Below are positions 33,928-48,157 of a stretch of 64,000 nt of DNA, one piece after another. Source of the DNA: Lachnospiraceae bacterium (GTDB taxonomy: Bacteria; Bacillota; Clostridia; Lachnospirales; Lachnospiraceae); NCBI GenBank assembly GCA_017469945.1, contig JAFUFI010000004.1, positions 94,581-158,580 of the forward strand, written 5' to 3'. The notes below the pieces were generated by a model. It had not been told where the DNA came from and did no database searches. It saw only the letters and a program-made list of their open reading frames with translations. Position numbers and translations under genes: made by a program. Positions within the stretch are counted from its first letter, which is position 1. Each line of letters begins with the position of its first letter.

Positions 33928-35403
33928 TTACTCGATTCCCTCGCAGGCTTTCTCAATGGCGTTTCTAACCGCAGCAGCCTTTTGGATGCATTCCCTGTAT
34001 TCATTTTCCGGTACAGAATCTGCTACGATTCCCGCACCCGAGCGGATAAATACTTTACCGTTTTTCGAAAACGCAAGTCTTATTGCGATACATGTATCCA
34101 GGTTCCCTGTAAATGAAATGTAACCGATGGCACCTCCGTAGATGCCTCTCTTATTGTTCTCGAGTTCGTTTATGATCTCACAGGCGCGAAGCTTTGGAGC
34201 TCCGCTTAAGGTTCCGGCGGGAAGTATTGCATCGACTGCATCAAGAGCATCCTTATCGTCCCTTATATCGCCGCCTACCGTCGAGCCTATATGCATTACA
34301 TGGGAGTATCTCTCGATGGACATATACTTTTCAACTTCTACCGATCCGATCTTACTGATCTTTCCTATATCGTTTCGTCCGAGATCAACGAGCATATTGT
34401 GCTCTGCTCTTTCTTTTTCGTCGGCAAGCAGTTCTTTCTCGAGAGCGATATCTTCCTCGTCTGTTTCTCCTCTTTTTCTTGTACCTGCAAGAGGGAAAGT
34501 ATGGAGCCTTCCGTTTTCAAGCTTTACAAGAGTTTCGGGGCTGGCTCCCGAGATTTCTCCGTCGCTTCCCGAAAAGTAAAACATATAAGGTGAAGGATTT
34601 GAAGTACGAAGTACTCTGTATGCATCAAGGAGACTTCCTTCCATCTTAGCCTCAAGTCTGTTGGAAAGTACAACCTGGAAAATATCTCCCTCGAAGATAT
34701 AGTGCTTACCCTTTTTAACCATCTCGCAATAGTTTTTCTCATCAAAAAGGGGTTCGAAATCACTTAAGAGCTTTAAAGGTTCGTTAGACGCCGGTTTACC
34801 GCTTAAGATGATTTCCTTCATCTCATTAAGCCTTTTAATTGCTGTATTGTAGCTGACATCAATGTCTTCGGTTCTTATATTGTAGATGAGGATTATCTTT
34901 TGCCTGTAATTATCGAAGGCGATAACCTTATGGAAAAGCATCAGATTGCAATCCTTAAAGCCGTCCTCATCCTTCGCATCAAGCTTAAGAGTAGGTTCGC
35001 TGTATTTTATATAGTCGTAGGAAAAATATCCTACAAGGCCGCCTGTAAAAGGTGGAAGTTCTTTATTTTCAGGGCTTTTGTATGTGTCAACAATTTCTCT
35101 GATAGCCCCTCTGATATCTTTTTTTTCGGATCTTGTTCCGTCGGGATCCGTTACGGTAACCTCACCATTGTAGGCGGTAATCTCCATTAAAGGATCGTAT
35201 CCGAGGAAGGAATATCTTCCCCACTTTTTATCAGCCTCTGCGCTCTCAAGAAGATATACATGTTTGCTGACATTTTTAAGCTTTTTAAGGACCTCGATAG
35301 CTGTTGTTGAATCCGCAAATATCTCGCACCAGACGGGAATCACCCCATACTTTCCGGTATTTGCTATTGCCTTACATTCTTCCAGTGACGGATAGATTTT
35401 CAT
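33928..35403 (-). CDS. trpE: Anthranilate synthase component I
   Basis: 491 residues. Makes anthranilate from chorismate. The tryptophan feedback motif LLES is present (VYLLESAEADKKWGRYSFLG), so activity is probably inhibited by tryptophan. The catalytic half contains RTSNPSPYMFYFSG, GASPETLVK, AGTRKRG and HNMLVDLGRNDIGK. The ATG at 35403 follows AAAGGAG; the frame upstream lies in the T-box terminator. First gene of trpEGCBA. Confidence 0.97.
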   Translation of the reverse strand: MKIYPSLEECKAIANTGKYGVIPVWCEIFADSTTAIEVLKKLKNVSKHVYLLESAEADKKWGRYSFLGYDPLMEITAYNGEVTVTDPDGTRSEKKDIRGAIREIVDTYKSPENKELPPFTGGLVGYFSYDYIKYSEPTLKLDAKDEDGFKDCNLMLFHKVIAFDNYRQKIILIYNIRTEDIDVSYNTAIKRLNEMKEIILSGKPASNEPLKLLSDFEPLFDEKNYCEMVKKGKHYIFEGDIFQVVLSNRLEAKMEGSLLDAYRVLRTSNPSPYMFYFSGSDGEISGASPETLVKLENGRLHTFPLAGTRKRGETDEEDIALEKELLADEKERAEHNMLVDLGRNDIGKISKIGSVEVEKYMSIERYSHVMHIGSTVGGDIRDDKDALDAVDAILPAGTLSGAPKLRACEIINELENNKRGIYGGAIGYISFTGNLDTCIAIRLAFSKNGKVFIRSGAGIVADSVPENEYRECIQKAAAVRNAIEKACEGIE

Positions 35404-35446
35404 CTGATGCTCCTTTCTTACTTTGTTATAAACTCGTATATAAATA

Positions 35447-35728
35447 TATAAAAAAACATCCTCGGCAAATAAACTATTTGCCAAGGACGGGATAAACTAA
35501 AATATCTCGCGGTGCCACCTTGATTCGCTTAAGCAGCGCTCTTATCGGAAGACCATCATCTTCTTTACCTTTAACGCAGGCTAACGTCGCAGTATACTCG
35601 GAAACTCCTTTCGCCACGCCCTCAGCGGCCCATTTGACAGCCAGTAATCCAACCTTTCTCAGCACCCGGTCTCTCTGTAAGCACTTTTACTGCCTTTATC
35701 CCCGCTTCAACGGTTTATATCTTAAATT
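35447..35728 (-). ncRNA. T-box riboswitch, tryptophan type
   Basis: A leader of about 280 nt that senses uncharged tRNA. The T-box core AAGGTGGCACCGCGAG is at 35506-35521, where UGGC would pair with the tRNA NCCA end. Stem I elements AGAGAGACCGGG and GGTGCTGAGAAAGG lie upstream. A UGG triplet at 35630-35632 (AAATGGGCC) is the likely specifier for tRNA-Trp. A terminator follows, so low tryptophan charging should favour read-through into trpE. The specifier assignment is by context, not by folding. Confidence 0.92.
35448..35486 (-). terminator. T-box regulated terminator
   Basis: CCTTGGCAAATA pairs with TATTTGCCGAGG (12 bp, one G-U, 3-nt loop), then ATGTTTTTTTA on the minus strand, 45 bp before the trpE start. 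Confidence 0.92.
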
Positions 35729-35734
35729 GAATAA

Positions 35735-35763
35735 ATATTACTACGTCACTTTACAGTTGTCAA
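35735..35763 (-). promoter_or_regulatory. Promoter of the trp operon
   Basis: TTGACA (35758-35763), 17-bp spacer, TAATAT (35735-35740) on the minus strand. Predicted start near 35728, at the 5' end of the T-box leader. Confidence 0.8.
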
Positions 35764-35800
35764 GTGGTAAATTTGGTAAACATCCCCCTCAATACTTCCT

Positions 35801-35873
35801 GTCAAAAATGACACCCCAACCCCGTCCCCCTGTGTCATTTTGTTGACACCCCAACCCCGTCCCCGGGGGTCAT
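35801..35873. repeat. Tandem pair of REP-like palindromic units at the glucosidase 3' end
   Basis: Two units, 35809-35836 and 35844-35872, each bounded by TGACA/TGTCA-type ends around CCCCAACCCCGTCCCC. The second unit reads TGACCCCCGGGGACGGGG on the minus strand and contains the TGA stop of the GH13 gene (35870-35872). Composition is far richer in G and C than the surroundings. A third copy lies at 45629-45657. It resembles the REP sequences moved by Y1-type (RAYT) transposases; no such gene is in the window. Confidence 0.8.
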
Positions 35874-37549
35874 AAATATCTTACTTTGATGACGAGGGCT
35901 TCATAGGGCTCGAGTATCATGTAATCAATCGGAAATGTGTAGGATGAATCCTTTTTATTCTTTAAAGGGTAATTGGATATAGCAACTTTCCCTTTGTGTC
36001 CTCTAAAAACCTTAGGCAGTACAAAGGGAATCTTCTCTTTAGCAAAAGAGGTAATAACAACATATCCGTTCTTATCAAGGCGCCTTTCGTACATATAAAC
36101 GTAAGGATGGTTTTCCTCGTATTCCTTATATTTTCCGAAAAGCAACGTTTTGCTCTTTTGCCTAATCTTTATACACTCTCTGTAGAAGTTTAAAATGCTG
36201 TTAGGATTCTTTTCCTCCCTGGAGACATTGATCTTCCTGTAATTGGGATTTAAATAAAACCAGGGCTTAACCAAAGAGAATCCCGCGTATCTTCCGGAAG
36301 TCCACTGCATCGGAGTCCTTGCCGAATCTCTGCTGGATAAATGTATCCTCCGCAGCCTGTCTTTTTCATCATCCTTAAGATGATACTTAAAGTAATTATT
36401 TATAGAGGAAACGTCTATATACTTATGTATCGAGGACAGGCGGATATTAGTCATACCGATTTCCTGTCCCTGATAAATAAATGGAGTACCGTGCAAAAAC
36501 AAATAGCAAAGTGCAAGGGCCGTTCCGCTTTCTCTGTGGTATTTCTCGCTTCCGTATCTGCTGATAACCCTTGGATGATCGTGGTTTTCAAGATAAAGTG
36601 AATTCCACGCTCTTCCCTCAAGTCCGTACTGCCATTTAGATAAAGCCTTTTTAAGCCTTATCAATTTAAAAGGTCTGTGGATATACTCAGTAAACAAGCA
36701 GTCTGCAGTCATATGGTCAAAAGAAAACATCATATCAAGAGACTTGGTATCGCCGCTTAAATACTTTTTTGCGTTTCCAAGGGAAGTCATAGGCCCTTCG
36801 CCGATCTGCACCGCGCCGTACTCGTCGCAAACTTCTCTGAATTCCCGCATATATTCATGAATATGGGGACCATCCTTGTAATGCATCATGCTTCCAATTA
36901 TCGGCAAAAATCCGATACCATTGGGTAGTCCTTCTCTTTTGGAAATAAAGTTGATAACATCTTCTCTAAATCCGTCAACACCCATCTCAAGCCAGAAACG
37001 AAGGATGTTTTTTACTTCCTCCCTAACCTTTGGGTTGTCCATATTTAAGTCCGGCTGTTTCTTGGCAAAAAGGTGCAGATAGTACTGACCTCTTTCCTTG
37101 TCAAACTCCCAGGCCGAGCCTTCAAGGATGGAATCCCAGTTGTTGGGCTTATCTCTCCAGATATAATAATCGCTGTAGGGATTATCCTTACCCTTTCTGC
37201 TCTCCTTAAACCATTTATGTTCATCGGAAGTGTGATTTATGACAAGGTCCATAACAACCTTCATTCCGAGAGCATGGGCTTTATCAAGCACCTTTTTAAA
37301 CTGATCAAGATCTCCGTAATCGGGATGGATATCGCAATAGTCGGAAATATCATATCCGAAATCCGCATTGGGAGAAGGATACAAAGGGTTAAACCAGATA
37401 GCGGTTACTCCAAGGGATTTAATGTACTCCAGCTTGTCGTACACACCGTAAAGATCCCCTATACCGTCCCCGTTACCATCGGCAAAGCTTCTGACCCAAA
37501 TCTGATAAAATACCGCTGTTTTATACCAGTCCCTCTTAGAACTTTCCAA
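35870..37549 (-). CDS. GH13 alpha-glucosidase (oligo-1,6-glucosidase/dextran glucosidase type)
   Basis: 559 residues, no signal peptide, so cytoplasmic. Conserved regions: VMDLVINHTSDEHKWF (region I), GFREDVINFIS with the nucleophile Asp (region II), QIGEGPMTS with the acid/base Glu (region III), and ENHDHPRVISRYG (region IV). GFRxDVINFIS is typical of subfamily GH13_31. It would release glucose from the ends of isomalto- or malto-oligosaccharides. The start is TTG at 37549, with AGAGG upstream; no ATG precedes the conserved WYKTAVFYQIW. Its stop codon lies in a REP-like unit. Confidence 0.92.
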   Translation of the reverse strand: MESSKRDWYKTAVFYQIWVRSFADGNGDGIGDLYGVYDKLEYIKSLGVTAIWFNPLYPSPNADFGYDISDYCDIHPDYGDLDQFKKVLDKAHALGMKVVMDLVINHTSDEHKWFKESRKGKDNPYSDYYIWRDKPNNWDSILEGSAWEFDKERGQYYLHLFAKKQPDLNMDNPKVREEVKNILRFWLEMGVDGFREDVINFISKREGLPNGIGFLPIIGSMMHYKDGPHIHEYMREFREVCDEYGAVQIGEGPMTSLGNAKKYLSGDTKSLDMMFSFDHMTADCLFTEYIHRPFKLIRLKKALSKWQYGLEGRAWNSLYLENHDHPRVISRYGSEKYHRESGTALALCYLFLHGTPFIYQGQEIGMTNIRLSSIHKYIDVSSINNYFKYHLKDDEKDRLRRIHLSSRDSARTPMQWTSGRYAGFSLVKPWFYLNPNYRKINVSREEKNPNSILNFYRECIKIRQKSKTLLFGKYKEYEENHPYVYMYERRLDKNGYVVITSFAKEKIPFVLPKVFRGHKGKVAISNYPLKNKKDSSYTFPIDYMILEPYEALVIKVRYL

Positions 37550-45416: not shown

Positions 45417-47582
45417 TTATCTTTTCTCCCAGAATATTTCCAGATTGTCCCCCTCTTTAAGTTCCTGCATATAAGCGGCATCAAGACCGTTCACTCTCGT
45501 AATGACGCTTCTTCCCGCAGGATTGCGAAGATCGAAATCTATATAATCAAACACATCAACAAAAACATAACTTGCCTTGCCGTGCATCGTAATCGGTTTG
45601 CCGTTCGCCACAATACTCAGATCGTGAATGACCCCCGGGGACGGGGTTGCTGTGTCATTTTTTGAAGTATCTTCATTAGGCTCGGAAGTATCCTCCACAG
45701 CAGTGGTTTCATCCGGCACTTCCTCTTTAGCTTCCTCGGCCTCGTCTACTTCTTCCGCCTCTTCTGTTTCTTCCTCTTCTTCAGCCTCTTCAGCTTCTTC
45801 GTCTTCGTACCGCTCGCTTAACTCATTTTGCTCCTCTTCGCTAAAGTCCAGAGTAAAGTCCTCGTAAACCTTAGTACTGCTCTTAGCGGAGGTTCCGTTG
45901 ACCGTGATATTCGGAGTCAGCTTGATATCAAGCATACCACATATCTGCTCAACCGTATAGAAATTATCTATAACGATATCATCACCGTCGGTTATATCAT
46001 AAAACTCGTTTTCAAGCTTACCATTTACAAGGGCTGTTCTCGGAAGCTCGATCTGTTTTCCGTTTACAACTATATGTAAAGGCTCAGAAATCTCTTTTAG
46101 GGATCCCAAAGTTGCTTTCGCATCTTCTCCCGCGGTAGAATTTATAACTTCAATCTTATCTCCGCTGTTTATCACAGTATAAAGATCCGCAGGCTCGTTG
46201 TTAAGCTTGATCACGCAAGAATCACCCTGCTCGCCTCTGATCATCTTACTCTTTCCGTTTACGGTAAATGTAAGAGCCTTGCCCCTCTTGGGGAAGAGAT
46301 CCTCGTTTGATAAAGAAACCTGCATAGCAGCATCGGAAACAGTAAGTTTACCGTTATCATAAAGCTTAAGGCGCTGAGAGTTAAACTCAACAAAAATAAA
46401 GTTGTTGCTCTGCGCATAGTAGCTTAAACAGATACCGATAGGCGTAACCATAAGCGAATCCTTAATGGCATCATCATTTTCAAACTCTATGGATTGCATT
46501 ACTTCCTTACCGCGGATGGCAACACGCTCCTTAACGATATCAAGCTTCTTGGCGAGTTTCTCGGTATATCCTGGAACGGTTCCGCCACCGCCTACCACGA
46601 ATACAGCGCTGACGCTCTTATCACCGTTAAGTCTCTTGATTTCAGTCGCAACTTCATCAGCCATCTCGTCAAGCTTTTTGTCGAGCATATCAAGAACCTT
46701 TTTGGGCTCAATAGTCTGCGGAAGTCCTAAAATATCTGTATATTCGATAACCTCATGTCCACCTGCAGCGCGCTTTATCGCCTCGGCAGTCTCAAACTCA
46801 ACAAGACAGTTTTGAACAACGATCTCCGTAAGAGCATCACCGGCAGTAGGTATCATACCGTATGCAACGATCGTTCCGTCGCTTGTAATAGAAATATCGC
46901 TTGTTCCCGCACCCACATCCACAAGTGCAAGATTTAGCATTCTGAACTTTTCCGGGATTGCTACCTGGATAGCGGCAATAGGCTCCAAAGTCATATTAAT
47001 TACGGAAAGTCCCGCTATTCCAACAGCCTTGTTAAGTCCGTCAACTACGTCATCGGGAAGAAAAGTAGCAATAAAATCACAGGAAATCCTTGAAGCCTTA
47101 TGTCCTTCCAGATTACCTATCTGGTAATCGTTCATATAATATCGCATAGGTGTATATCCTACGCAATAAAACTTTATATCGGAATCATTCTTTGCGGCAA
47201 ACTCTGTATAAGCCTGCTCAACGCCGTTCATAAGAAGATTGTAGATATCTTCCGCATCTATCTCTTTTTCGGCTTCAAATCTTATCTCTGATTTAGTAGT
47301 AACGGTACGAAGCACACGACCTGCGGCAGCGATACAAACATCGGACAGGTTAACGTCAAGCTTCTTTTCAAGCTCTTCTTTTACGGCCTTGATCGTAAAT
47401 CCAACCTTTTGGATATCGTGAATCTGACCGTCGAGCATAGCTCTCGTTTCATGCTCTTTGACCGTCTGCCCGATTACATGAAATTTATCCTTAATAAGAT
47501 AACCAACGGTTCCAACTACACTTCTTGTACCAATATCAAGTCCAAATACAAGATTGTCCGATCCGCTTTTTACTCTTGCCAT
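45417..47582 (-). CDS. Long FtsA-like actin-fold ATPase with C-terminal repeat domains
   Basis: 721 residues. Residues about 1-390 are an FtsA/PilM-type ATPase: FGLDIGTRSVVGTVGYL (phosphate 1), an SHS2-like insertion, LALVDVGAGTSDISI (phosphate 2) and VFVVGGGGTVPGYTEKLA (adenosine). Then come three related modules of the form VNGK-x-I...V.DGD.I (near 430, 500 and 655-721, ending LKEGDNLEIFWEKR). An acidic linker of Glu/Ala repeats (about 580-640) precedes the last module. Residues 642-651 are encoded by a REP-like unit. It probably links a filament-forming ATPase to the envelope; a direct role in division is inferred. ATG 47582 follows GGAGGG and overlaps coaE. Confidence 0.85.
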   Translation of the reverse strand: MARVKSGSDNLVFGLDIGTRSVVGTVGYLIKDKFHVIGQTVKEHETRAMLDGQIHDIQKVGFTIKAVKEELEKKLDVNLSDVCIAAAGRVLRTVTTKSEIRFEAEKEIDAEDIYNLLMNGVEQAYTEFAAKNDSDIKFYCVGYTPMRYYMNDYQIGNLEGHKASRISCDFIATFLPDDVVDGLNKAVGIAGLSVINMTLEPIAAIQVAIPEKFRMLNLALVDVGAGTSDISITSDGTIVAYGMIPTAGDALTEIVVQNCLVEFETAEAIKRAAGGHEVIEYTDILGLPQTIEPKKVLDMLDKKLDEMADEVATEIKRLNGDKSVSAVFVVGGGGTVPGYTEKLAKKLDIVKERVAIRGKEVMQSIEFENDDAIKDSLMVTPIGICLSYYAQSNNFIFVEFNSQRLKLYDNGKLTVSDAAMQVSLSNEDLFPKRGKALTFTVNGKSKMIRGEQGDSCVIKLNNEPADLYTVINSGDKIEVINSTAGEDAKATLGSLKEISEPLHIVVNGKQIELPRTALVNGKLENEFYDITDGDDIVIDNFYTVEQICGMLDIKLTPNITVNGTSAKSSTKVYEDFTLDFSEEEQNELSERYEDEEAEEAEEEEETEEAEEVDEAEEAKEEVPDETTAVEDTSEPNEDTSKNDTATPSPGVIHDLSIVANGKPITMHGKASYVFVDVFDYIDFDLRNPAGRSVITRVNGLDAAYMQELKEGDNLEIFWEKR
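45629..45657. repeat. REP-like unit inside the FtsA-like coding sequence
   Basis: 29 bp reading TGACCCCCGGGGACGGGG then TTGCTGTGTCA on the plus strand. It matches the minus-strand reading of 35844-35872 at 27 of 29 positions. It is read in frame as NDTATPSPGVI, within the flexible linker before the last domain. Confidence 0.85.
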
Positions 47583-48157
47583 CTGTAACCCTCCAGTCTT
47601 CTCCTGATACATTCGCAAGCCTTATCAAGAGAACTGCTGTTATCAATAATAAAATCGCATTCCCTGCGAAAAACCTCATCAGAAAGCTGATTGGCCATAA
47701 TGCCCTCAGCCTTTTCCCGGCTGTATCCCCGTGAATTCATAAGACGCAAAATCCTTACTTCCCTGTCGGCGTATACATACCAGAGTTCATCTAAAATATC
47801 TTTGTACCCTGCCTCTATTAAAAGCGCAGCCTCCACAAAAAAGAGCTCGCATCCTTTTTCTTTTGCCCTGTTAAGAGCATCAAGAAGATAATCCTTTACG
47901 GCGGGGTGTATGATAGCATTAACCTTCTCTAAAAGATCTTTATCCGCAAAAACAGCCTTTGCCATCTTTTGCCGGTCGCCTGCCACATCCTCGCCTAAAA
48001 GCAAGACAAGTTTATTATAACACTCCGTGCCCTTTTTTCTTACTTCAAATGCAACTTCATCCGCAAAATATATCTCACAAGTATAATGCTTTCCGATATA
48101 TTTAAGTATTTCGCTTTTTCCGGCTCCTATACCGCCGGTTACTCCGATGAATTTCAT
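47570..48157 (-). CDS. coaE: Dephospho-CoA kinase
   Basis: Last step of coenzyme A synthesis. 195 residues with the P-loop MKFIGVTGGIGAGKSEILKYI, YFADEVAFEVRKKG and HPAVKDYLLD. Its ATG overlaps the polA stop (TAATG), and its own 3' end overlaps the FtsA-like start, giving tight coupling. polA-coaE adjacency is common in Firmicutes. Confidence 0.96.
   Translation of the reverse strand: MKFIGVTGGIGAGKSEILKYIGKHYTCEIYFADEVAFEVRKKGTECYNKLVLLLGEDVAGDRQKMAKAVFADKDLLEKVNAIIHPAVKDYLLDALNRAKEKGCELFFVEAALLIEAGYKDILDELWYVYADREVRILRLMNSRGYSREKAEGIMANQLSDEVFRRECDFIIDNSSSLDKACECIRRRLEGYRWQE

Follow-up and report, generated by a model that had tools for sequence, protein, structure and literature searches.

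The window analysed here, a stretch of 64,000 nucleotides from a Lachnospiraceae genome, holds on its minus strand a GH13 gene (35870..37549) whose 559-residue product has an alpha-amylase catalytic domain, as judged from the open reading frame list and from profile matches. In Pfam and NCBIfam profile searches the Alpha-amylase domain scores 487 bits, and the best NCBIfam model, alpha,alpha-phosphotrehalase, reaches 560.6 bits, under its cut-off of 799 bits. Among named genomes, uncultured Lachnospiraceae bacterium RUG13622 comes closest at this gene, with 97% identity. How does the gene end? Its frame closes with AGA TAT TTA TGA, and the TGA, at 35872-35870, is the first three bases (minus strand) of a 29-nt repeat unit. 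Two such units stand here as direct tandem repeats with 6 bases between them: unit A (35809..35837, minus strand, TGACACAGGGGGACGGGGTTGGGGTGTCA; TGACACCCCAACCCCGTCCCCCTGTGTCA in plus-strand letters) and unit B (35844..35872, minus strand, TGACCCCCGGGGACGGGGTTGGGGTGTCA; TGACACCCCAACCCCGTCCCCGGGGGTCA in plus-strand letters), both carrying the core GGGGACGGGGTTG on the minus strand. A first-pass annotation of this DNA had noticed tandem units at the end of the GH13 gene and had assigned the stop codon to one of them, and direct reading bears out both points. Its span of 35801-35873 was slightly too wide, the repeats covering 35809-35872, and of the TGACA/TGTCA ends that it described, the distal unit ends in GGTCA, not TGTCA. 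In mRNA sense, 35809-35872 lies directly past the stop and has six runs of at least four G in 64 nt, a possible G-quadruplex. An Rfam search over 35000-36500 gave one strong match, a T-box leader at 35480-35719 (minus strand; 71.9 bits, gathering threshold 93) upstream of the next gene, that for anthranilate synthase component I, and one match at chance level.

The core also reveals a third unit of the family in the window, at 45629..45657 on the plus strand, within an FtsA/PilM-like gene (45417-47618, minus strand). Allowing up to two mismatches, the 13-base core matches the window three times, each time exactly, against 0.48 matches expected, and three matches were reached in 2 of 100 shuffles. 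This third unit lies in frame and encodes DTATPSPGV with partial codons at its ends. The acidic linker of the protein has one unit in the genome under study (G000) and three in its relative G006, all sharing one open frame; for G014 part of the gene is available, and it contains no unit.

How widespread is the repeat? The half unit GGGGACGGGGTTGGGGTGTCA (21 bases, up to three mismatches) matches the 2.62 Mb genome at 140 places; a reversed-pattern control finds 0. Places pooled from the matches listed for three patterns (the half unit and two 29-nt patterns) numbered 146; after clustering, 52 stretches around them were used, in which there were 150 pattern matches, and one weak match (L155:6651) was dropped as a chance match. 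This leaves 149 units, grouped in 97 elements. Chance similarity is ruled out by the excess of the core over shuffles in the window, the 140-149 genome matches and the absence of reversed-pattern matches. The genome-wide search suggested by the first-pass annotation therefore reveals a dispersed, high-copy family of about 150 units, far from being confined to the copies in the window. By clustering, 47 elements are single units, 48 are pairs and 2 are triples, and the family is mostly extragenic, with 3 of the 97 elements lying inside open reading frames of more than 200 residues. The commonest unit, TGACACAGGGGGACGGGGTTGGGGGTTCA, accounts for 35 of the 149 copies, and a minor variant with the core GGGACGTAGATGGGGG occurs at L132:3733 and L139:1800. 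Seven contigs of the assembly start or finish at a repeat unit (C1, C2, C5, C12 and C13 near base 1; C17 and C27 near their ends); the assembly thus likely breaks at repeats, and the count of copies may be too low.

The anatomy of the elements is quite regular. TGA reads inward at 186 of their 194 outer edges, and the four nucleotides just outside are AAAA at 102 edges, TTTT at 18 and ATTT at 13. Between the two ends of a unit, three bases match in 138 of 149 units, four in 61 and five in 16. As DNA the commonest unit folds at 0 kcal/mol, i.e. it has no predicted hairpin of its own; unit B of the window folds at -6.0 kcal/mol, and its shuffled versions are equally stable. Inverted units are paired at a fixed offset, 60 nt in 20 cases and 49 nt in 4, and the spacer between them (for example TAGTCAGAATAATTTCAAAATTATCTGACTA), 31 or 20 nt long in the commonest forms, is itself palindromic; one such pair with its spacer folds to -48.7 kcal/mol. 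The full element is thus two inverted 29-nt units with a palindromic spacer, most often with AAAA just outside, and the hairpin is formed by the inverted pair round its spacer and not by most single units. The first-pass annotation had spoken of GC-rich, REP-like palindromes. High copy number and dispersal agree with that description, whereas the palindromic nature of the units (five matching end bases in 16 of 149) and the GTAG expected of a REP do not.

Is the stop codon of the GH13 gene an isolated case? Counted by element, 19 of the 97 form the stop of a gene and 24 more have a stop 3-9 nt before their edge; for the remainder the stop lies at 10-20 nt in 7, at 21-150 nt in 20 and further away in 21, and 3 have no gene end in the stretch. 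Genes here are open reading frame calls of at least 90 codons, not annotation, so shorter genes go uncounted, and the figure of 19 is what is left of 20 zero distances in the histogram after removal of an antisense 109-residue frame over the window units. The distance from stop to unit edge peaks at 0, 5, 6, 7 and 9 nt, with none inside a unit in the listed range. For 70 elements the gap is bounded by one gene end or more, and 38 of these stand no further than 9 nt from a stop. Uniform placement of each element in its gap predicts 13.3, and the maximum in 20,000 simulations was 23. A/T runs were considered as the whole cause of this clustering and rejected, as at 166 repeat-free gene ends such runs begin about equally often close to the stop and further off: with distance taken from the first base of the stop codon, the frequency of AAAA/TTTT starts is 0.060-0.062 at 0-6 nt and 0.046-0.055 at 16-50 nt.

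The reading frame is biased as well. There are 27 open frames of at least 100 codons that run into an element: 22 meet its TGA in frame, and 5 arrive in one of the two remaining frames; the 22 include three short frames (101-136 codons) outside the 19 genes that may be shadows, as may some of the five others. These two remaining frames carry no stop across the unit in 139 of 149 units, whichever direction is read. The 19 stop-supplied genes have AAA as their last sense codon in 13 cases and TTT in 3, that is 16 of 19 compared with 15 of 160 repeat-free gene ends, and the GH13 gene, which ends TTA-TGA, follows neither form. Away from elements, 129 genes stop with TAA in 80 cases, TAG in 29 and TGA in 20. 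Supply of the stop codon by the repeat is a systematic property of the family.

What do these genes look like where no element is present? At the GH13 gene, the repeat-less relatives G014 (91% identical), G009 and G029 have TAA at the very codon where unit B makes TGA (35870..35872, minus strand), and G005 runs 9 codons further; the stop is TAA in all four. The first-pass annotation had suggested that the element set the present C-terminus and had proposed aligning relatives without the repeat; with three of four ending at the same codon, that suggestion is not obviously borne out. C-terminal truncation of the GH13 protein is unsupported by these three relatives, although G005 has its 9 extra codons, and comparison of the sequences indicates that the unit probably took the place of an earlier stop codon and did not shorten the protein. 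The nearest repeat-less site, that of G014, has diverged downstream of the stop, and G006 has the same repeats as G000. In two more distant named genomes, L034 (78%) and L081 (74%), a related but different unit forms the same GH13 stop, which suggests either repeated arrival at one codon or old presence followed by losses. Nor is the repeat a conserved part of the orthologous loci: the core GGGGACGG lies within 100 nt of the stop in 3 of 77 readable named orthologous gene ends (L032, L034 and L081).

The same comparison was made for 13 genes with repeat-less orthologues. In 26 comparisons the ends differ by 0 codons in 10, by 1 in 7, by 2 in 7, by 5 in 1 and by 9 in 1; alignments had at least 38% identity and ended at most 20 residues from the C-terminus, a filter that favours small length differences. 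The repeat-less stops are TAA in 17, TGA in 5 and TAG in 4. Kept outside the 26 were the rows of G006, which shares elements with G000, and three rows with a core-like match near the stop (G005, G009 and G013, with net differences of 0, +1 and 0). The gene at L155:1800 has no orthologue, and those at L114:2619, L124:1800 and L125:3060 have one only in G006. A unit edge can also change the end of a protein, as seen in a short gene at L125:1800 (and the reverse complement of L188) which from our reading of its sequence we name an XRE-like regulator: in G000 it has 76 codons and ends ESTPD before the element, and in G006 it is 4 codons shorter with its stop at the unit edge. Within one L125 block that aligns to G006, two sites, L125:1800 being one of them, differ in unit number, a difference that deletion, unit exchange or insertion can each explain. 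After a 420-residue gene at whose stop G000, G006 and G029 have units, G009 (L189 / L196) has a different tandem repeat, TGACA.ATAAGCTCTGACCAGAGTAGGCA, directly past TAA.

Which enzyme could move such a repeat? A genome search returned a single Y1_Tnp (RAYT-type) gene. Its product matches PF01797 at 52.5 bits (cut-off 23) and NF047646, REP_Tyr_transpos, at 75 bits (cut-off 80), and its C-terminus, at residues 251-278, reaches 20.9 bits to HTH_23 (E 0.00031), under the cut-off of 24.6. Picked out by eye, it has what we take to be the HIH and tyrosine motifs of the family. A sequence search for relatives of solved structure returned none at E 0.01. The first-pass annotation had proposed looking for a Y1/RAYT gene flanked by the same repeat, and this one has units on its 3' side (plus strand) and on its 5' side (plus and minus); its own TGA stop is a unit edge. 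Across the gene the longest exact inverted match is 8 bases. The adjoining stretch L125:10477-12262 is 97% identical to G014:C98:32542-34328, and the protein pairs compared between G000 and G014 at gene ends are 48-92% identical; judged by this identity the stretch looks like a recent transfer, and the transposase was not found in G014.

Transposase matches occur in 8 of 31 genomes of the genus, own genome included. Five of the eight have the highest counts of the unit pattern: 149 (own), 144 (G006), 84 (G005), 36 (G029) and 24 (G024). The other three, G012, G026 and G027, have 10, 3 and 1 matches, with other repeat sequences beside the transposase gene. G028, a genome 84% complete in which no transposase was found, has 14 unit matches; in the 22 further genomes, also with no transposase found, counts are 6 (G022), 5 (G020) and 0-4 (all others). 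The transposase stop is a unit edge in G006 too and lies within a unit in G029. In several more distant transposase genes a repeat begins at the stop or a few bases from it; for these distant relatives the flanking repeats rest on reading by eye, the automatic inverted-repeat check of 12 transposase loci being weak for most (exact matches of 8-9 bases in seven, of 13, 15 and 22 in three, none in two).

Several elements of this picture are familiar. In the available part of Di Nocera et al. 2013 (PMC3733652), TIRYT genes are described as RAYT-superfamily Y1 transposases flanked by inverted TIR repeats (TIRtrons) with a common motif GGGGWSAS; TIR families are moderately abundant, many occur in dimers or clusters, and the repeats beside the transposase gene in some cases extend over its ends. 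The present system is alike in having a Y1 RAYT-superfamily gene flanked by repeats, whose core GGGGACGG fits GGGGWSAS at 7 of 8 positions, and unlike in its TGA outer edges, its copy number of about 150 and its measured supply of stops. The same available text states that GTAG REP termini often give a TAG stop to flanking open reading frames and that some REPs lie within such frames; there, it is the GTAG REPs and not the TIR repeats that are said to supply stops. Like the present family, GTAG REPs and BIMEs with their RAYTs have high copy number, paired inverted units and a position adjoining stop codons. The present family differs in that it lacks GTAG, its common single unit does not form a hairpin, the stop supplied is TGA and the transposase has a likely C-terminal helix-turn-helix. 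The accessible portions of other papers place part of the E. coli REPs close to stops (PMC12306157) and repeats very near or immediately past rayt stop codons (PMC2817692), and the phrase "stop codon" is absent from the accessible text of PMC8266576. TnpAREP subclass 2.1, as presented in the part available of Quentin et al. 2018 (PMC6006769), is a long protein with a C-terminal HTH_23-like extension, probably the same as TIRYT according to its authors, who found no REP-like sequences near the subclass 2.1 genes. The present transposase is likewise a long protein, with a likely HTH_23-like C-terminus; here repeats are plain beside the gene.

The lack of GTAG, the mostly non-palindromic units and the likely C-terminal helix-turn-helix point to the TIR/TIRYT branch of the RAYT superfamily, and the sequence features fit a repeat of TIR type served by a TIRYT transposase, not a canonical REP. 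The first-pass annotation had assigned the repeat to REP units moved by Y1/RAYT transposases: the RAYT-superfamily gene is there, and the canonical REP gives way to the TIR type. The broad class is ordinary and TAG stops from GTAG REPs are already in print; what is new is the TGA-edged TIR type, with its frame lock and mostly unchanged protein ends. No report of TGA-edged TIR repeats at stops was found in the RAYT/TIRYT literature, that on Clostridia and Lachnospiraceae included, as covered by titles and abstract openings of largely open-access papers.

Taken together, we favour, with a probability of roughly 0.78, a reading in which the window units are of TIR type and likely moved by the single TIRYT-like Y1 transposase, their edges read TGA inward on either strand, and the GH13 gene now takes its stop from the adjoining copy, probably with no effect on protein length. 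How would this work? A gene frame entering an element as AAA-TGA or TTT-TGA would acquire one Lys or Phe codon and then stop. Arrival at a stop codon would exchange the native stop, mostly TAA, for the TGA of the element, and arrivals in frames that read through would mostly be lost. As a last step, the transposase or its single-stranded target may favour the 3' ends of genes. Mobilisation by the transposase would be in keeping with its co-occurrence with the units across the 31 genomes of the genus, and the targeting, too, could be its work.

Could selection alone produce this arrangement? Insertion would then occur anywhere, copies in coding DNA surviving only if their edge TGA is in frame and at most a couple of codons away from the former stop, and copies further away being lost for other reasons. 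We put this at only a little short of an even chance, and it conflicts only with the last step above, the preference for gene 3' ends. The 22 of 27 frame bias and the near-zero length change are what such a filter would leave, and residues encoded by the other frames could be harmful. A filter against coding damage, however, leaves unexplained the crowding into the first 9 nt past stops (38 of 70 in the same gaps that predict 13.3), as well as the presence at one and the same stop, in separate lineages, of units that are related yet distinct (at GH13 in L034 and L081, not in G014, G009, G029 or G005), a pattern repeated for an 858-residue gene and the 420-residue gene. Another possibility is that a native TGA is the target: just as IS200/IS605 elements enter on the 3' side of a fixed target word, the element would enter directly 3' of a TGA stop already in place. 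Zero length change would be expected here as well, and the gene at L148:4253 indeed ends natively with TGA in G013 and G009. It is nevertheless an improbable account, as TGA is the stop in only 5 of the 26 repeat-less comparisons, all four GH13 relatives have TAA, and TGA marks the outer edges (186 of 194) also away from stop codons.

The remaining two accounts concern what the repeat is. The proposal of the first-pass annotation, a GTAG REP and the RAYT that moves it, both of canonical type, would agree with a high-copy, mostly extragenic family of paired units and with one REP-associated-type tyrosine transposase. It is contradicted by the structure of the units and seems quite unlikely: neither a GTAG nor a GTGG foot appears among the common flanks, GTAG being outside the 14 commonest 4-nt flanks, the commonest unit (35 of 149) lacks a predicted hairpin, though one window unit folds at -6 kcal/mol, and the likely C-terminal helix-turn-helix of the transposase is a mark of subclass 2.1/TIRYT in the available text of PMC6006769. 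An ordinary intrinsic terminator, or a conserved 3' element of the GH13 operon, is suggested by the GC-rich DNA that closes the gene and by the T5 that comes after it on the minus strand. This is very improbable and already contradicted by the distribution of the repeat, with the core missing near the stop in 74 of the 77 readable named orthologous loci and about 96 other elements in the genome; a scan of 35600-36100 found no terminator, and the RNA fold has a z-score of only -1.25, results by which a terminator or structured RNA was rejected.

Does the TIRYT-like transposase aim at stop codons? A repeat that homes to them, its transposase aiming at gene 3' ends and its TGA-edged, A/T-flanked ends shaped for stop replacement in either orientation with the protein left intact, is a tentative and rather doubtful proposal. 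If insertion is targeted, the family would be mobile DNA that escapes purging by bringing a stop codon with each edge and by settling on the harmless codon. Three simple counts, of frame bias, of the Lys/Phe-stop signature and of repeat-less orthologues, can be made again for any RAYT/TIRYT genome, and they make the question of why REP-like repeats hug gene ends, by target choice or by selection, testable. In G029 the transposase is 55% identical and the units differ, many of them starting with TGT. Of 26 elements there, in 19 stretches, 5 supply a TGA stop and another 5 have their edge 4-5 nt past a stop; in 2 an open reading frame stops at a TAG inside the unit; 4 of the 5 stop-forming cases end in AAA or TTT, compared with 5 of 28 repeat-free ends.
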